From positions 1 through 34,709 of IMG/VR virus record IMGVR_UViG_3300028025_004839: a stretch of DNA of 34,709 nt; one strand, written 5' to 3'. Source of the stretch: a virus. This document shows positions 3,705 to 27,300 of this stretch, one piece after another (positions within the stretch are counted from its first letter, which is position 1; every line of letters starts with the position of its first letter). A program made the position numbers and the translations under genes. Below the pieces are notes generated by a model. It searched no databases and was not told the origin of the DNA. It saw only the letters and a program-made list of their open reading frames with translations.

Positions 3705-3733
3705 ATTCTACTAAATAATACAGGGGCAGTCAA
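3705..3733 (-). promoter_or_regulatory. Sigma-70-type promoter for the polymerase unit
   Basis: On the minus strand TTGACT (3733-3728) is followed by a 17-nt spacer and TAGAAT (3710-3705). This is close to consensus in both boxes with ideal spacing. The expected start of transcription, about 7 nt below the -10 box, falls at about 3698, the A of the next gene's ATG. The -35 box lies inside the hairpin at 3723-3744. Confidence 0.65.
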
Positions 3734-3744
3734 TAGACTGCCCC
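3723..3744 (-). terminator. Stem-loop after the ssDNA-binding protein gene, probable terminator
   Basis: A perfect 9-bp stem (GGGGCAGTC / GACTGCCCC) with a TATT loop lies 15 nt after the stop of the ssDNA-binding protein gene. On the minus strand it is followed by TGTATTATTT, a broken T tract, so termination is probably partial. It may also stabilise the 3' end of the upstream mRNA. The -35 box of the next promoter is built into its loop and 3' arm. Confidence 0.6.
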
Positions 3745-3758
3745 CGCTATTTAATTTT

Positions 3759-4472: not shown

Positions 4473-5477
4473 TTATTTTTGATGGGTCCAAGATTGATAT
4501 TCAATATTGGAAACTGCGTTTTTAATACAGGCTTTAATTTCCTCTTCGGTCATATCGCCAGCATCTTTTGCATCATGTGGATATATCTTACCATATTCAT
4601 ACGAAGCCCACAAGAGGTCTTTATTGTTTAATCTAGAGACTATGCTATTGGCAAGCTCACGCCCAGCGTGGTCCGCATCAGTCATTAGAGTAACCTTATT
4701 AAAATATCTATTTATTAATGCCAAGTTTTCTGTGGATATATGGCCACCAAGTGTTGCAATAACATTGGGGAATCCAGCCTGATGCACACGGATTGCATCA
4801 AAGCTAGACTCTACAATAATAACATTGTCACCTATTTTTTTAGCACGGTGAATGTTAAACATAGTTTTACTTCTTGGTAAATTAGTACTGTTCTTAAATT
4901 TCTTTTCTGATATTGATCTGCCAACAATACCAACTGCAAGGCCGTCTGGGCTGTGTACTGGAACAGTAACCATGTCTTGCTTTGGGGAATAGCCTAAAGA
5001 AAAGTGCGCTATCGAAGACATATCAATGCCCCTAGACTTAAAATAATTTTGTGCCTCTGGACTGGCAATCAGGTCGTTATATAAATTCTTTAGTATCTCT
5101 TCTGGGAACTCTACAAAGTCTGGCTTGTCTTCTAACATATCGTTTAGAAGATCATCAAAGTTTTCTAGTGTCTCTGCCTCTTTTGAATATACGTATCTCA
5201 TAGCTTCAAAATCATTCTTATGCAAAACTCTTTTAACTATCTCTATCAGCGATCCAGTTTCACCACAGGATGGATTAAAGCATAGCCATGCACCAGTTGT
5301 TTTACTTATGCTGCAGCTAGCACTATGTCTATTGGAATGAAATGGGCAGTAGAAAGAGATCTCTATATCTGTTTCACCCGCTACCTGTAAGCCAAGGCTT
5401 TTTACAATCGCCTTTATATGCTGCTTAGAGTATTGCGTGGTATCAGCTTTCCTTGCGTAATTGCTTCGTGCCGCCAT
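4473..5477 (-). CDS. DnaG-like DNA primase (zinc finger plus Toprim)
   Basis: Makes RNA primers for the phage replisome. Using ATG 5477 (334 aa), an N-terminal CHCC zinc finger is seen with C44, H47, C66 and C71 (YCPFHSNRHSASC and CFNPSC). The Toprim core follows: IIVESSFDAIRVHQAG with the catalytic Glu, and LMTDADHAGREL with the DxD metal site. It is much shorter than E. coli DnaG (581 aa) and ends after Toprim plus a short helical tail, so it has no classical C-terminal helicase-binding domain. ATG 5477 is preferred because AGGAAAGAAG lies just upstream. The in-frame ATG at 5528 lacks a ribosome-binding site and would increase the overlap with the previous gene to 115 bp. Confidence 0.92.
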   Translation of the reverse strand: MAARSNYARKADTTQYSKQHIKAIVKSLGLQVAGETDIEISFYCPFHSNRHSASCSISKTTGAWLCFNPSCGETGSLIEIVKRVLHKNDFEAMRYVYSKEAETLENFDDLLNDMLEDKPDFVEFPEEILKNLYNDLIASPEAQNYFKSRGIDMSSIAHFSLGYSPKQDMVTVPVHSPDGLAVGIVGRSISEKKFKNSTNLPRSKTMFNIHRAKKIGDNVIIVESSFDAIRVHQAGFPNVIATLGGHISTENLALINRYFNKVTLMTDADHAGRELANSIVSRLNNKDLLWASYEYGKIYPHDAKDAGDMTEEEIKACIKNAVSNIEYQSWTHQK

Positions 5478-5725
5478 GCCGTCTTCTTTCCTACATAAGT
5501 GCCATAGAGTGTCATTAAGAACATCCATGTTGTGCCATCAAATTCTACCGAAAAGTTAGTGTCTATGTCAAGTACCCTAAGATACCCTTTGTCTCTCATT
5601 TGGTGCGTAAGCATGCTTTCATATTGATACTTAATGCGAACCATATCAGAGTCATCTAAAAATTCAACTCTAACCTGGAATCTTTTTATCGGTTTGTGAT
5701 TCATTATTTTGGAACGGATTCTCAT
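5414..5725 (-). CDS. Conserved-type small protein between helicase and primase
   Basis: A 103-aa protein that overlaps both neighbours, the helicase by 56 bp and the primase by 64 bp. It is mixed alpha/beta with strands such as FQVRVEFL, FSVEFDGTTWMFLMTLYG and a basic C-terminal part. It has no cysteines, signal peptide or membrane segment. ATG 5725 has AAAGAG about 5 nt upstream, while the alternative ATG 5704 has no clear site. I do not recognise the family. Its position inside the helicase-primase pair makes a helper role in priming possible, but that is only inference. Confidence 0.7.
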   Translation of the reverse strand: MRIRSKIMNHKPIKRFQVRVEFLDDSDMVRIKYQYESMLTHQMRDKGYLRVLDIDTNFSVEFDGTTWMFLMTLYGTYVGKKTAWRHEAITQGKLIPRNTLSSI

Positions 5726-6932
5726 AAATCTCTTTGACGATACCCCTGTTGATATCCCAATCTAAGTATAAACCAAATTCATGTCCATGTCGATTCTTGC
5801 GTGACACAATCTCAATCATGTTAGTCCCTGGATATCTGTGTACGGCCATAGCCATATCGGCATCGTACTCAATAGCTTTTGACCACGCAACCTGAGACAT
5901 CATCGGCGGATTGTCCTGATCAGATACATCATCTGCAGTGGCTGCTGTGATATCGATAATAGGAATATTGTTAGATACTGCTAGCATTTTAAATTCACGA
6001 GAAACATTTCGGTTTCTTTCAACTTCAGAATTGCTTCGCTTGTTATCATTAAATAATTGATGATAATCAAGGATAACTAAGTCTGGCTTATGCTGATCAA
6101 TCTTTCCTTGAATAGTTGCTGGTGTGACTTCCGTATTGCCCTCATTTGAAATAAGGATAAAGCTATTCTTATCAGCAAATTTCTTTGTTGACCATGAGCG
6201 GAAGTCATCTATATTAATATCTCCCTTTGAAAAATCGGAAGCCTTAAATAGTCCAGAGCCAAGCATTGTATAAATACGATCACGCATATTCTCTGGTGAC
6301 ATTTCAAGGGATACAATCATAGGCTTAAACCCTTGCTCCCACGCTTTACAGGCAAGGTAGGATGTAAACCATGTCTTACCACGTCCTGGCCAGCCAATAG
6401 CGACGATAAGGTGGCCTGGAGCCATACCTGTTGGGTATGCTAAATCTATGGCCTCAAAACCAGTCTTGATGCCTGGAGAACCGCCCATCTCGGCAGAGCG
6501 TACCTTTAATAATTCCATATATCTAATTGCTGCATCTGCATCCGTTATGTCTAGATCTCGAACATTGTTTGTGAACCTGCTGAGGCCAGCTAATTGAGAC
6601 TGCATGTTCTCAAGAACTCTTGAGGCAGCATCTTCTTTAAGTGATGATCCAGCACGGAGAATAATAGTCTTAAGTTTGTTTGAAATAAATTCATTCTTAA
6701 GCGTGTCTAGATAGTATCCAGTCTGGCCTTTAACATCTACTGGCTCAAAGTCTTTAAACTTTTCTTGAAGAATTCCAGCTTCTGGTACGGCTTTAAACTT
6801 ATAGTAGTATGACTTTAGGCCATCCCAGATATCTTTATGTGATGTAAATAAATCGTCTACGTTATCCGCAAGTAGCGTACTAATATCTTTATTTTTGCAT
6901 ACCGCTGAGATTAACTCTGCTTCTGTATTCAC
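5670..6932 (-). CDS. DnaB-like replicative DNA helicase
   Basis: A 420-aa hexameric-type helicase of the RecA-like DnaB family that would unwind DNA ahead of the phage polymerase. A helical N-terminal region of about 110 residues (MNTEAELISAVCKNKDISTL) precedes the ATPase. Walker A is GWPGRGKT (about residue 180). IVSLEMSPENMRDRI gives the catalytic Glu segment. Walker B is LVILDYHQL (about 288). The late motif ISRKNRHGHEFGLYLDWD (about 375) matches the conserved DnaB/gp41 arginine region. It starts within an ATGA overlap with the upstream gene. It is shorter than bacterial DnaB (about 470 aa), with a reduced N-terminal domain. Confidence 0.94.
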   Translation of the reverse strand: MNTEAELISAVCKNKDISTLLADNVDDLFTSHKDIWDGLKSYYYKFKAVPEAGILQEKFKDFEPVDVKGQTGYYLDTLKNEFISNKLKTIILRAGSSLKEDAASRVLENMQSQLAGLSRFTNNVRDLDITDADAAIRYMELLKVRSAEMGGSPGIKTGFEAIDLAYPTGMAPGHLIVAIGWPGRGKTWFTSYLACKAWEQGFKPMIVSLEMSPENMRDRIYTMLGSGLFKASDFSKGDINIDDFRSWSTKKFADKNSFILISNEGNTEVTPATIQGKIDQHKPDLVILDYHQLFNDNKRSNSEVERNRNVSREFKMLAVSNNIPIIDITAATADDVSDQDNPPMMSQVAWSKAIEYDADMAMAVHRYPGTNMIEIVSRKNRHGHEFGLYLDWDINRGIVKEIYENPFQNNESQTDKKIPG

Positions 6933-7555: not shown

Positions 7556-7673
7556 CTTCTACCTTTTTTACTATCACAGGGCCGTTCTTAGAATTCCAAT
7601 ATTCAACTTCTGCTTCACGCTTGCGTTTTTTTGCAGCGCCTGTCTCTAGTGTGTACCGTGCCATTTCAGCCAT
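7542..7673 (-). CDS. 43-aa basic miniprotein of unknown function
   Basis: ATG 7673 overlaps the stop of the helix-turn-helix gene as TAATG, and GGAG lies close upstream. The product starts MAEMARYTLETGAAKKRKRE and ends in VEDGKK, with a basic cluster (KKRKR) in the middle. A second in-frame ATG at 7664 is also possible. No family is recognised. The frame has no obvious competing use on either strand and is joined to both neighbours by overlaps, which is the main support. Confidence 0.55.
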   Translation of the reverse strand: MAEMARYTLETGAAKKRKREAEVEYWNSKNGPVIVKKVEDGKK

Positions 7674-8158
7674 TACTCCGCCTTCCATACTGGAACAAAC
7701 TTTCCGTCTTCTGTCTTAGTATACAATACTAAGTTGTTTTTGAGAAGGGCCTGGACCTCTGCCTTTGAAGGAACTTCTTTTGAGTGCCCTGAGTCTAATA
7801 TATGTTGGTGTATATCTAATATGTTCTTTTGATTAAACATATACTGAGACCAATTTTCGCTATCTGGCTGTCCGATTGGATATATCTTTTGAGGGGTAGC
7901 AACCTTCTCATTCAATATATATTCTTGTATAGTTACCCTATGCTTATTAAGCATAGAGGCAACTTCTACAACAGTGTAAGCGGTTTCCATATTCTTTTTA
8001 ACCTGAGAATACGAATACATAACTCTTTTCTTGTCTGGATAACACCAGGCAACCATCTCATCCTTTGATCTGGATGCTTTTAAAACCTTATGTATCTTAT
8101 CGTTTAAGAAGAAATACCGTAAGCTTTTTGATTTGCCGTCTCTTTTGATTCCAGCCAT
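7673..8158 (-). CDS. Helix-turn-helix (MerR/excisionase-like) DNA-binding protein
   Basis: A 161-aa protein. Residues about 60-95 (AYTVVEVASMLNKHRVTIQE) have the form of a winged helix-turn-helix as in MerR-type and excisionase proteins, where the first helix reads 'VxEVAxxLxxxxxTIxxYI'. The N-terminal 50 residues are basic (GIKRDGKSKSLRYFF), and the C-terminal half carries a second short helical unit (SKAEVQALLKNNLV). It could regulate phage transcription or bind the origin. It overlaps the preceding zinc-ribbon gene by 55 bp. The start is ATG 8158 with only a weak GGA-type site upstream. An operator-like repeat lies about 1 kb upstream in the same unit, but no link can be shown from sequence. 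Confidence 0.75.
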   Translation of the reverse strand: MAGIKRDGKSKSLRYFFLNDKIHKVLKASRSKDEMVAWCYPDKKRVMYSYSQVKKNMETAYTVVEVASMLNKHRVTIQEYILNEKVATPQKIYPIGQPDSENWSQYMFNQKNILDIHQHILDSGHSKEVPSKAEVQALLKNNLVLYTKTEDGKFVPVWKAE

Positions 8159-8289
8159 TTTCCGAAAGCACTCGTTTCTTTATTGCACATCCAGCGTTTG
8201 CCGCACATGATACAGAATAATTCCATATGTAGTTTTTGAGAGAAGACTCTGTCTACAAAAACTCGTCCATTGCATTTTCCGCACCACAT
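8104..8289 (-). CDS. 61-aa zinc-ribbon miniprotein
   Basis: It starts MWCGKCNGRVFVDRVFSQKL; C3 and C6 pair with C26 and C29 (CxxC-x19-CxxC), the pattern of a zinc ribbon, and an extra C35 follows. It begins at a TAATG overlap with the metallophosphoesterase stop, so it is translationally coupled. Its last 55 bp overlap the helix-turn-helix gene in another frame. A role in binding nucleic acid or as an adaptor is plausible, but no partner is visible. It is too short for any enzyme domain. Confidence 0.75.
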   Translation of the reverse strand: MWCGKCNGRVFVDRVFSQKLHMELFCIMCGKRWMCNKETSAFGKWLESKETANQKAYGISS

Positions 8290-9089
8290 TATAAAGTAAA
8301 CAACTTCCCGTCAACGACACATGAATAATCAGGAGCGACGTGAATCATCTGAATATGTGGATAGTCATTAACGATGTGAGCAATTGCAAATCCCTTTTGC
8401 CAGTCATGGTGCTGCATGTACTTCATCCCTGGACCCTTTTCATCACACATATGGCCAAGCTCATAACCACGAAGTGTTTCTCCTTCGCCATTATTCCTTA
8501 ACTCGTATGTGACTAAATGTGAGGCAATTCTGTGTGAGTGTCCTCTAATTAATGATATCTGTAGGTCTTCCATATCTTTACGGACTGAGCCTGTTGCTGC
8601 AATTGAAAGGCCGTGGTGTACGTGAATATCTCCAAAGCGTCGTTTTGGCAATTCGTTGTAATGAATGTACTCGTATCCCAAGGAGTCAAGGCCCCATAAA
8701 GCTTCTGGAGTTACTTCGTTTATATAGTCTGGCAATTTTGCATCTACATAATTAAAAATTCTAACATCGTGATTACCAAGCGCTGAAAATAGCTGCGCTT
8801 CTGGGAGCATGTCTCTTGTCTTCGCATAAAAGTCTCTTGCGCCCTTTGCTTCGTGACGCATCATTGGAACAATAAGATCACGGCTATCTGTTTTGTGAAG
8901 ATTTAAAAACTCTGCTGATCTTCCTTCTGTGTACTTGCTATAGCATGCCTGATCATCTGTATCTCCAAGGTAGTCAACGACATCTGGCTTAAACCACTTC
9001 ATCACTTTAAACCAAAGTGCAATCATCTTGTCATCCTGATATGGAAACTGCTGGTCGGATGAAATCATCCACTTTAAATCGTTGCTCAT
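8289..9089 (-). CDS. Calcineurin-like metallophosphoesterase
   Basis: A 266-aa two-metal phosphoesterase with all signature motifs in order: SSDQQFP (residues 10-16, where the usual DxH is D12-x-Q14), LGDTDD (41-46), GNHD (105-108), HHG (158-160) and GHSH (183-186). The Q in place of the first-motif His is seen in some phage members and should alter one metal ligand. Substrate is unknown; nucleic-acid ends, cyclic nucleotides and phosphoproteins are all possible. It is the first gene after the promoter and operator-like region at 9133-9170, so it leads the replication transcription unit. The start ATG 9089 has AAGG about 8 nt upstream. Confidence 0.9.
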   Translation of the reverse strand: MSNDLKWMISSDQQFPYQDDKMIALWFKVMKWFKPDVVDYLGDTDDQACYSKYTEGRSAEFLNLHKTDSRDLIVPMMRHEAKGARDFYAKTRDMLPEAQLFSALGNHDVRIFNYVDAKLPDYINEVTPEALWGLDSLGYEYIHYNELPKRRFGDIHVHHGLSIAATGSVRKDMEDLQISLIRGHSHRIASHLVTYELRNNGEGETLRGYELGHMCDEKGPGMKYMQHHDWQKGFAIAHIVNDYPHIQMIHVAPDYSCVVDGKLFTL

Positions 9090-9105
9090 TATCTGCCTTC
9101 ATACG

Positions 9106-9130
9106 AAAAAAGTCACGGGTACGTGACTTT
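9106..9130 (-). terminator. Rho-independent terminator-type hairpin between tail and replication blocks
   Basis: On the minus strand, a perfect 9-bp stem (AAAGTCACG / CGTGACTTT, arms 9130-9122 and 9117-9109) with a TACC loop is followed by a T run (9111-9106). It lies 45 nt below the last tail gene. It would stop transcripts coming from the tail genes. For transcripts started at the promoter just upstream it would instead be a hairpin at the very 5' end. Confidence 0.75.
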
Positions 9131-9132
9131 GA

Positions 9133-9151
9133 TGTTACAGTAAGTGTAACA
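9133..9151. promoter_or_regulatory. Dyad operator-like repeat over the -10 box
   Basis: The inverted repeat TGTTAC-N7-GTAACA has perfect 6-bp arms. It covers the -10 box (9148-9143) and runs to the expected transcript start at about 9136. This is where a repressor would block initiation. No binding protein can be assigned; the helix-turn-helix protein at 7673-8158 is one candidate. Confidence 0.45.
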
Positions 9152-9170
9152 TATTGGTTAAGATTGTCAA
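9143..9170 (-). promoter_or_regulatory. Consensus promoter for the replication block
   Basis: On the minus strand TTGACA (9170-9165, perfect -35) is followed by a 16-nt spacer and TACACT (9148-9143) with an extended -10 TGT directly before it. The predicted start is at about 9136, giving a leader of about 47 nt before the metallophosphoesterase ATG. Confidence 0.7.
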
Positions 9171-9174
9171 TAGG

Positions 9175-9612
9175 TTAAGCGGATGCTGGTGTTCCAGTAG
9201 CAAATACAACTACTTTGATATTTGATTTAGTTGCTGATCTAAATAAAACAAATGCTGCGGTGGTTGTTACCTTGGAAACCTGTGTAAATATTTGAGACTG
9301 TGCCCATGTTGGCTGGCTAATACCCTCAATATAAAATTGAACCCATACTGTTGGCGCTGAAGCCCACTTTTGTGTGCCAAATTTAAATTCTTTTGGTTTG
9401 GGTGTACCTGATTCTACAGTGACTGAAACAGGGCCAGAATTCCACAGCATGGTTGTAACTTGATCTTTCTTTCCTTCTTCTTGAGCATTTTGTAATATGA
9501 TGCTTTGGGCTGTACTTTTTGCTTCTATTGCTCCTAGATCTATAATAAGATTATTAATGATCTCTGCTGTTACTGGATCTCCAGGAGTTATAGCTCTTGA
9601 TTTTATTGCCAT
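9175..9612 (-). CDS. Tail-associated protein, last gene of the tail block
   Basis: A 145-aa protein. The N-terminus (AIKSRAITPGDPVTAEIINN) followed by a short helix is of a type seen at the start of phage tail-fibre and appendage proteins. The rest is beta-rich with alternating hydrophobic residues (TVWVQFYIEG, NIKVVVFATG) and has no enzyme motif. A strong AAAGGAGT site precedes ATG 9612, inside the end of the coiled-coil gene. It follows the S74 fibre gene and ends just before a terminator hairpin. A minor fibre or fibre-tip protein is the best guess from context. Confidence 0.78.
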   Translation of the reverse strand: MAIKSRAITPGDPVTAEIINNLIIDLGAIEAKSTAQSIILQNAQEEGKKDQVTTMLWNSGPVSVTVESGTPKPKEFKFGTQKWASAPTVWVQFYIEGISQPTWAQSQIFTQVSKVTTTAAFVLFRSATKSNIKVVVFATGTPASA

Positions 9613-24300: not shown

Positions 24301-27300
24301 TTTGTGAGCCTGCCATCTATCCCACGCAATCTTTCCTACTGTAGCGACTGTGCCGAGTGCAAGATTAAATCGTGTAAATATACTTAATGATTTTCCGAGT
24401 GCTTTGCTGAAAAGGTTTGAGCTTCCAGTTAGCTTGCTTAACATTGTTCCGTATTTAGTTAACTGTGGTGTACCAAGAACTTTATTAGATCCAACTGCAA
24501 ACATTGGGGTTCTTGCTTTTATAAATTTATCGCCCATAACGCTTGCGCCTTTTCCTGCACCTGCATTCATCATATTTCCCATAGCCAAGTATGGAAGGAT
24601 GTTTCCAACTTGTTTAATTGCATCTCCGCTGGTTCCGCCAACTTTATCGCCAGCATAATTTGCACCTTGCTGTATTCCAAAAAATAATAATAGCTGCTTT
24701 AGCATTGGGATTATTCCACCAAACCTAAAGCCATTTGGAATAGATCCTCCAGCTTTATATCCATTTGGAATTATTCCACCAGCATTTCTTGGAACAAATA
24801 GTTCTGGCCCCTTCTCTCCAACAATGTATGGCTGGCCTGCATTAACTGGTCCGCCCATTTCTCTTTTTTCTATTCCGAAAACCAACTGTTTTAAAGTTTC
24901 TGTTAACGGTGTATCTTTTTTAGATTCCCAATTTGCAAACTTCTTTCTAAGTATTTCTCTATCTATAACAGAAAGAACCTTTCTTCCCTCTGGTGCAGAT
25001 AGAGTGGATGAGGCTGCGGATCTTATTACAGAGTCCATAATGTCTGGCTCTAATGCTTTTACTAAATGTCCTTGTGCATTCTTTGAGTATCCATACGGCA
25101 TTTCTTTAGCAAGCTCGGCTGCAAATTTATCGTATAGAATTTTTTGAGTTCTCTTAGTTAGTCCAGTAGACCCAAAAAGCTTTTCGGCCATTCCTATTTG
25201 CAAGGACGTTACTCCCCATCCGCCAGTAGAATCTTTTCCAAATCCTGCACCAATTTTATGCATTGCTTTGCCTTTTGTTAATGCTTCAAGCAATCCGCCA
25301 AATCTAAATCCGTTTGCATCAGTTTTAAATGCATTGTCTGAAAGACTTGCTGAATGACCAGTTTGTCTACGCTTTAGTTCATCTGCTGCTACCATCTTTG
25401 CTATAGCCGCTGGTGTCATTTGTTTTTCTGGTGACATCTGCAAACCAGAGTGTATTCCATGAAGCTCTTTCCAATTGACGCCTCTTGCATCAGACAGTCT
25501 TTTAATCATTGCCTCATAGACAACTTTTTCTTCTGGGTTTAAATCAAATCTTGAGACTGTCTGCTTAAGCTTTGGCAAAGCGCTTTCAATTTCTTTAAGC
25601 ATACGGCTATGATATTCATCTGCGGTCATACCTTTTGGTATTTGATGAGTTGACTCAGCAAAGAATTTCTTAGCTCCGCTGCCTTTTCTTCCTAATAGAT
25701 TTATATAAGCCTGATCTTTTACTGACGGCATGACAGCTGAATATCCTCTGAGGCCAGAAGCTGCTGAGAATACTCCAGCTGGCCCTACGTCTGAAAGTAT
25801 GTTTCCAGATAAATTACCTCTTGCTAAATCTTTATCTCCACGTAAAGCTGATGCAACTAGCTGTCTAAAGTATTCGTCTGTCGTAAACTTAGCATCTGTC
25901 GCTGCAATCTTTGGATCAAATTTAGATTCTAGTGCTAACAGCTTTCTTCTACCAGTTGGATCGGTAGGGTCTCTCATTACAACAACTTTTTGTGTTGGAG
26001 CATGTAATCCATGAACCTCACGAGCAATTTGTGTTGCTCTCATTTCTGCAACTGCCGCTCTTTCGTCTAACACTGGCTTTACAAATACTTTTTCATCGCC
26101 CTTCATATAGAGTCCGCCAACTCCTGGAACAGGGAAGCTGCGTCCTGAAGTAGGGGATAGCATCTCTCCGTATTGAGTTACTGGAGTCTTTGCAAATCTA
26201 GAATTGGTAACTGCCTCGTTTGCTTTTTCCATTGCAACTCTTTTTGCTCTTTGTTCTTCAACTTGTTTGATAGTTTTAGGCATACCAATAAAGAAAGGCT
26301 TACCGTATCCGTATCTTCCCTTTTCTACAGTTCCTCCAGGAATAGATCCTCCAGCATTTCTTTTAAGAAATGCTCTTGACATCATTATGGCAAGTCTTTG
26401 TCTGCTTGCATTAAATGAGCTTCCGCTGAATGTTCCAAGCATTCCTTTTGCAAGGCCAGCCAATTTTGAATTTTCAATTGTAGTTAAACCATTTCTGGAT
26501 TTAACAAGCGTTTCTAATGCCGCGATAGGCTTTCCATCTCTTGGCCCCATAGGCTGTAGCACTGAATTAAATATTGATCTAAAAGACCTGTCTCCAACTC
26601 TTATATCTTTAAATGATTTAGAACCAATTACTTCTTTTTCAAACCATTTTTCAAATGTCATTACTCCATTTTTACCGCCAAATACTCTTGTATCTTTTTC
26701 AAGATTTTTAAGCATTTCGTTAAATACTTTATTAAATTGAGCGTTATTTCTTGGATCTCCACCCAGCCCTTGGGCTGCAGTCATCCATGGCTCAAATGGG
26801 TGTCTTCCTGCTGCAATTGCTTTTCTAAATTCTTTTGCTAGCTGCGGTCCAGTCATTCCGCTGCCGACTGATCGAGTTTGTTGATTTGCATCTCTGCTCA
26901 TCCAAATCGGAATTCCTCTACCAACACTTACTGAATTAGCGTATCCTCTTGTTGCCCGTACTCTTTTTAGATCGGCAGCAGATGCTTCAGAAACGTGACT
27001 TCTTTCAAAAGCTGTTTCTCCACCAAATTCGTGCATACCGCTCCCAGATGTATTTCCTGGTCCGCCGTTTAGCTCGTACATTAAAGGCATATTTCTTTGT
27101 GCAATGTGCGCTGGTATTACTGCTTCTCCAGGTGTTAATACAACTGGGACCTGACCACCTTCTTGTGCATAATAAGATTTGCCTCCAAGAATATTTGTTA
27201 TTAATGGTAGATGCTTTTCAGTAGCAGCTTTATTGATTACAAATGATCCAGGCTCAGCTGTTGTATGGTATGTATCTGTGTCGCCAGTTCCTGGAACAAA

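Follow-up and report, generated by a model that had tools for sequence, protein, structure and literature searches.

A conserved promoter–hairpin element between the tail and replication genes of phages related to actinobacterial phages

At the junction between the tail and replication genes of a phage genome, a consensus-like promoter and an RNA hairpin are packed together within positions 9106–9170 on the minus strand. We lean towards the reading that the replication operon is transcribed from this promoter, that its RNA folds into a hairpin within the first ~30 bases, and that in most members of the group the same hairpin would also stop read-through from the tail genes. The DNA analyzed, here called the window, is IMG/VR record IMGVR_UViG_3300028025_004839 over its whole length (positions 1–34,709; 34.7 kb). 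It is 100% identical to positions 24991–59699 of a 116-kb contig, which served as the genome in what follows.

Read along the minus strand, the element consists of TTGACA, 16 nt, TACACT, TACTGTAACATC, the hairpin AAAGTCACG-TACC-CGTGACTTT, TTT and CGTATGAAGGCAGATA, and then the ATG of a metallophosphoesterase (MPE) gene at 9089. The −35 hexamer (9165–9170) begins four bases past the stop codon (9177–9175) of a 145-aa gene with no family match (9175–9612), the last gene of the tail block. The 16-nt spacer ends in TGT, giving an extended −10 at 9143–9151 (TG at 9151–9150, TACACT at 9148–9143), and transcription is predicted, from the −10 spacing, to start at an A 7–8 nt below it (9135–9136). The hairpin (9109–9130) has a folding energy of about −10.7 kcal/mol, and a T tract (9106–9108, TTT after the stem, with the T run reaching 9106) gives it the shape of an intrinsic terminator for transcripts arriving from the tail genes. 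A Shine-Dalgarno-like GAAGG for MPE was recognized by eye at 9096–9100. Across the −10 and the start region lies a perfect TGTTAC-N7-GTAACA dyad (9133–9151), which extends to 8-bp arms, ATGTTACA-CTTAC-TGTAACAT, over 9132–9152. Promoter, dyad and hairpin are thus all located as a preliminary description of this sequence had claimed.

The same description placed the element between tail and replication genes, and gene content bears this out. Tail fibre/spike-type genes (phrog_4636, Peptidase_S74) lie upstream of the promoter. Downstream on the minus strand are MPE (8289–9089; phrog_221, E 4.3e-52), the first gene of the replication operon, then a 161-aa protein of unknown function (7673–8158; phrog_9440), the next large gene, homologous to annotated helix-turn-helix (HTH) DNA-binding proteins (35% identity to Circinus gp49, 1.3e-39), a DnaB-like replicative helicase (5670–6932), a DNA primase (4473–5528), an SSB and a DnaE-type polymerase. 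The 161-aa protein is far more variable between relatives than MPE. The MPE gene opens with ~22 bases (9068–9089, minus strand; GAGYAACGATTTAAARTGGATG) that are near-invariant as DNA, Rhodococcus phages included. Nucleotide similarity to named phages was confined to the MPE coding region of Rhodococcus phages, which are without the promoter–hairpin element, and an Rfam search of the window matched no known RNA family. From phage kinship alone, the host is likely to be actinobacterial.

The window by itself does not suffice for the claim, because promoter-like sites (54 versus 54.3 in shuffles) and terminator-like sites (13 versus 10.4) were about as frequent as expected by chance in a scan of half the window, and perfect 8-bp dyads with loops of 4–7 nt are common (42 in the 116-kb genome). 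Comparison was decisive. MPE searches of IMG/VR with group seeds returned 535–577 relatives apiece, of which the best 80 of each were retained; scans with Rhodococcus-phage seeds returned 9 and 3. Removal of duplicates left 109 distinct upstream regions, drawn from the best 80 of 535–577 per seed and largely from fragmentary contigs. TTGACA, exactly 16 bp, the TA of the −10 and a start-proximal hairpin are kept together in 104 of these 109, whereas the five exceptions without the element (L203, L204, L210, L212 and L213) are Rhodococcus-phage relatives. Among the 104, the hairpin begins ~11–16 nt below the −10 (less where outer pairs lengthen the stem), and its midpoint falls 23.1 ± 1.3 nt beyond the −10, leaving 30.7 ± 1.5 nt to the start codon. 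A −35/−10 pair in the 16–18 bp range of sigma-70-type promoters is therefore conserved, as the claim of a replication-operon promoter had implied. By sequence conservation the promoter–hairpin element is real: a fixed 16-bp spacer and an extended −10 define a promoter pattern of sigma-70 type, which is locked to a structured RNA at a near-fixed distance. The phages that carry it are a widespread group related to actinobacterial phages.

In essentially all related loci, a co-directional open reading frame, mostly of 132–175 aa, ends between −20 and +1 relative to TTGACA. Phages whose MPE is almost identical can carry very different genes immediately above the promoter, so the several thousand surrounding bases are unnecessary for the element. 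With a variable gene on one side and a nearly identical MPE on the other, the promoter seems to mark where an exchangeable tail module ends.

An alignment of 69 distinct sequences was used for the hairpin, T-tract and dyad counts. The eight pairs of the hairpin are paired in 98.4% of its cells, and two-sided changes occur at five of the eight (for example A-U to G-C, U-A to C-G and C-G to U-A). At one position of the inner stem, the four non-Watson-Crick cells are all U-G in the sense RNA, which would be A-C in the antisense; this strand preference is limited to the inner stem, because the outermost pair is A-C in the sense strand in seven relatives. RNAalifold recovers the identical helix unaided. 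On a tree of the MPE gene, relative to which the upstream element may have recombined, two pairs each co-changed about five times on independent branches, with no change in the opposite sense; sign tests reach only about p = 0.06, given the small number of independent pairs. On this covariation, the predicted hairpin is an RNA stem-loop under selection, as would also be expected of a terminator.

The T tract behaves differently from the stem. At least five Ts in the 8 nt after the stem are found in 55 of the 69 relatives, eight of these in the interrupted form TTATATAT, and 14 have fewer than five. In the window, the T tract follows the stem directly, as in an intrinsic terminator, but it is not conserved across relatives. 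One relative (L058) has AATATATA after the stem, with the T tract lost and the hairpin kept, and in the group of L142, L170, L196, L202 and L221 the stem persists above a palindrome, AGGCCATGAATATTCATGGCCT, with no T run. Judged by this alignment, the T tract is dispensable and the stem outlives the terminator signature. The preliminary description had treated the hairpin as foremost a terminator; its terminator shape stands in the window, but the emphasis does not, as the relatives in which the hairpin survives loss of the T tract suggest a role in the leader of the promoter itself. Since the T tract is lost while the hairpin persists, the shared role of the hairpin is probably that of a leader in the promoter's own mRNA, with the read-through stop probably an added role in most members. 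The steady features (the promoter, its distance to the hairpin, the RNA stem and the distance to the start codon) are those that a leader hairpin of this kind needs.

The same observations bear on two accounts that make termination the main function. If the hairpin were solely the intrinsic terminator of the tail operon, its position in the leader would be a by-product of tight packing. The 55 relatives with T-rich tails fit this, as do the constant placement behind a co-directional tail gene and a second compact hairpin–promoter junction in the window (3705–3747), but persistence of the stem without a T tract in a whole clade and in L058, the poor T tracts of Streptomyces phages and the constant distance from hairpin to −10 speak against it, and we regard this account as possible though rather unlikely. 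Alternatively, the hairpin could act as an attenuator, ending most transcripts from its own promoter at ~31 nt until antitermination opens the operon. Its position in the leader together with a T tract is what such a device would look like, yet the tract is lost in several relatives and folding of the leader gave no alternative pairing partner for the stem, making attenuation very unlikely. In phage phiC31 and in mycobacteria, hairpins without T tracts reportedly may still terminate, so loss of the T tract does not exclude termination as the shared role in actinobacterial phages.

Under the leader-hairpin reading, RNA polymerase would start near 9136 and the mRNA would open with AACAUC followed directly by the hairpin, in agreement with the earlier claim that transcripts begun here would carry a 5′ hairpin. 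The hairpin, which is fixed near the transcript start relative to its predicted position, may shield the 5′ end and keep the leader from other pairings, in the manner of 5′ stem-loop stabilizers. The ~6 unpaired 5′ nucleotides are slightly far for the tightest known 5′ protection, which counts against this, as does the lack of a strong hairpin behind the promoter in phages of the Boydwoodruffvirinae. In the window and most relatives, late read-through transcripts would meet the hairpin and its T tract ~40–60 nt past the last tail stop codon and be stopped there, again as had been proposed, and the promoter would occupy the obligatory gap that termination needs behind the tail gene. In Escherichia coli, terminators more than 30 bp past a stop codon work at full efficiency with no hindrance from ribosomes (PMC4824070); in the window 44 nt separate the stop codon from the stem, which makes read-through termination plausible wherever the T tract exists. 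Transcripts born at the promoter would be no more than ~31 nt long on reaching the T tract, and it is assumed, as in the preliminary description, that most of them escape.

An operator role for the dyad found no such support. Its left arm is held by the promoter itself and its right arm covers the start site. The 8-bp-arm dyad is perfect in 31 of the 69 relatives, the inner spacer varies from 5 to 7 among well-formed cases, and the dyad is missing in the L138, L142, L145, L146, L205 and L035 lineages. Some changes are coupled: T-A becomes C-G in both arms in L125, L249 and L283 (TGTTAC/GTAACA to TGCTAC/GTAGCA type), and C-G becomes T-A in L303. The phylogenetic signal is weak (2.1 same, 0.5 opposite, 3.4 no change). 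A search of the 116-kb genome for further TGTTAC-N7-GTAACA copies, proposed in the preliminary description, gave no second perfect site and one other with a single mismatch, and membership of a regulon was rejected on this single perfect copy; because single operators exist, the lack of copies lowers the operator claim but does not dismiss it. The HTH protein of the operon was likewise rejected as reader of the dyad: its residues do not track the dyad (30 of 69 loci could be read automatically), and L035 and L046 have the HTH sequence of the window with the dyad absent, a result that concerns this operon's HTH protein only. A divergent promoter arising from the dyad symmetry was rejected by inspection, as the last T of the antisense −10 is not kept.

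These results weigh on the proposal that the locus is an early/late switch, in which, at the late stage, a repressor on the dyad would shut the promoter and the hairpin would stop read-through. The overlap of the dyad with −10 and +1, where a repressor would act, the perfect arms in many relatives and their coupled changes all suit such a switch, but the lineage losses, the variable arm spacing, the single perfect copy, the weak phylogenetic signal and the dyad-free loci with an unchanged HTH sequence make it unlikely. The variable spacer makes a rigid dimer operator less likely. The dyad is better described as a secondary, lineage-dependent feature, one that might be an operator or might form an additional hairpin in read-through RNA. 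The earlier interpretation as a whole was thus half right.

The second junction, at 3705–3747 on the minus strand, has the order reversed. A strong hairpin, GGGGCAGTC-TATT-GACTGCCCC, contains the −35 (TTGACT) within its descending arm and is followed by a −10 (TAGAAT) and an ATG 7 nt below, and the overlay is conserved, with stem changes, in relatives. Tight hairpin–promoter packing therefore recurs in the window. The two sites could be two builds of one reusable hand-over device, in which polymerases that finish the tail operon are released and begin again, within tens of bp, on the replication operon, with the hairpin also capping the mRNA so begun, although we consider this quite unlikely. 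One-dimensional recycling of bacterial RNA polymerase after intrinsic termination, as described in two published reports (PMC6978380, PMC7957599), makes such a function conceivable. Under recycling, a polymerase released at the hairpin would slide back and restart some tens of bp upstream, so that late traffic passes into the replication operon. The geometry and the presence of two overlays fit, but recycling is hard to reconcile with the relatives whose hairpins have no T tract, and we see it as extremely unlikely.

The same layout, which speaks for the leader role, was found in eight Streptomyces phages of the Loccivirinae (Comrade, Karp, Gilson, Moab, Beuffert, Annadreamy, Sham and TunaTartare), whose MPE is ~40–42% identical to that of the window. 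Their promoter, TTGAC(A/T)-17-TANNNT, leads into a long stem that adjoins the MPE ribosome site and in several of them carries a GAAA loop; the stem sequences are unrelated to those of the window and the T tracts are poor. The shared layout could reflect either common descent or convergence. In NootNoot, Jay2Jay and Wofford a promoter is present but no strong hairpin follows it, and neither promoter nor hairpin was found at the corresponding place in Grayson, Trina, NiceHouse, Faust and Wakanda. In L214, a dyad in the promoter spacer is combined with a leader hairpin. Dyads in the spacers of MPE-upstream promoters were seen there (L214:2930–2990) and in Streptomyces phages (L344, L348–L359), namely GGCGC-GTATT-GCGCC, CACAA-C-TTGTG and, in Gilson, CTCAA-CTCGT-TTGAG.

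Across four contigs of 115–117 kb, many strong promoter matches, which are matches rather than mapped starts, lead to leaderless or short-leader genes. At the promoter of an Hsp20-like gene, the predicted transcript opens with a hairpin at +1 or +2 that is kept through several stem sequences with no T tract, in line with the leader role proposed for the hairpin of the window. This leader hairpin (L102:8750–9231 and relatives L360–L439) covaries around an invariant GCC-N3/5-GGG core, and a second, weak hairpin lies over the Shine-Dalgarno sequence; from its predicted structure, the leader is possibly an RNA thermometer.

As a natural part, the promoter–hairpin element is compact and abundant, a single hairpin can serve two transcripts, and its layout recurs across very different phage sequences. 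It offers a way to compare the effect of a terminator-shaped hairpin at about +6 on newly initiated polymerases with its effect on polymerases coming from upstream, and to learn how tail and replication genes are kept apart in such phages. Among known systems, it resembles the 5′ stem-loop mRNA stabilizers of the ompA leader type (PMC7148126, PMC7509114), in which a hairpin lies near the 5′ end, upstream of the Shine-Dalgarno sequence, and pairing is kept rather than sequence. Unlike these, the hairpin described here stands at the start of a phage replication operon, is terminator-shaped as well in most members and is predicted to leave ~6 unpaired 5′ nucleotides. With intrinsic (Rho-independent) terminators it shares a GC-containing stem, a 4-nt loop, a T run and a position 44 nt past a stop codon, whereas it differs in lying downstream of a promoter, within the next leader, and in having a T run that relatives dispense with. 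The early region of actinophage phiC31 reportedly has terminators without poly-U tails, and the element is like these in being an actinophage hairpin near a promoter that can lack a T tract. The inverted repeat over the −10 and start site recalls lambda-type operator–promoter overlaps, but here the dyad is single copy, variable in spacing and not generally conserved. A search for overlapping promoter–terminators in phages found no direct precedent in the literature covered. Each component is thus known, while one conserved hairpin that opens one message and, in most members, possibly closes the previous one is, to our knowledge, a new arrangement.
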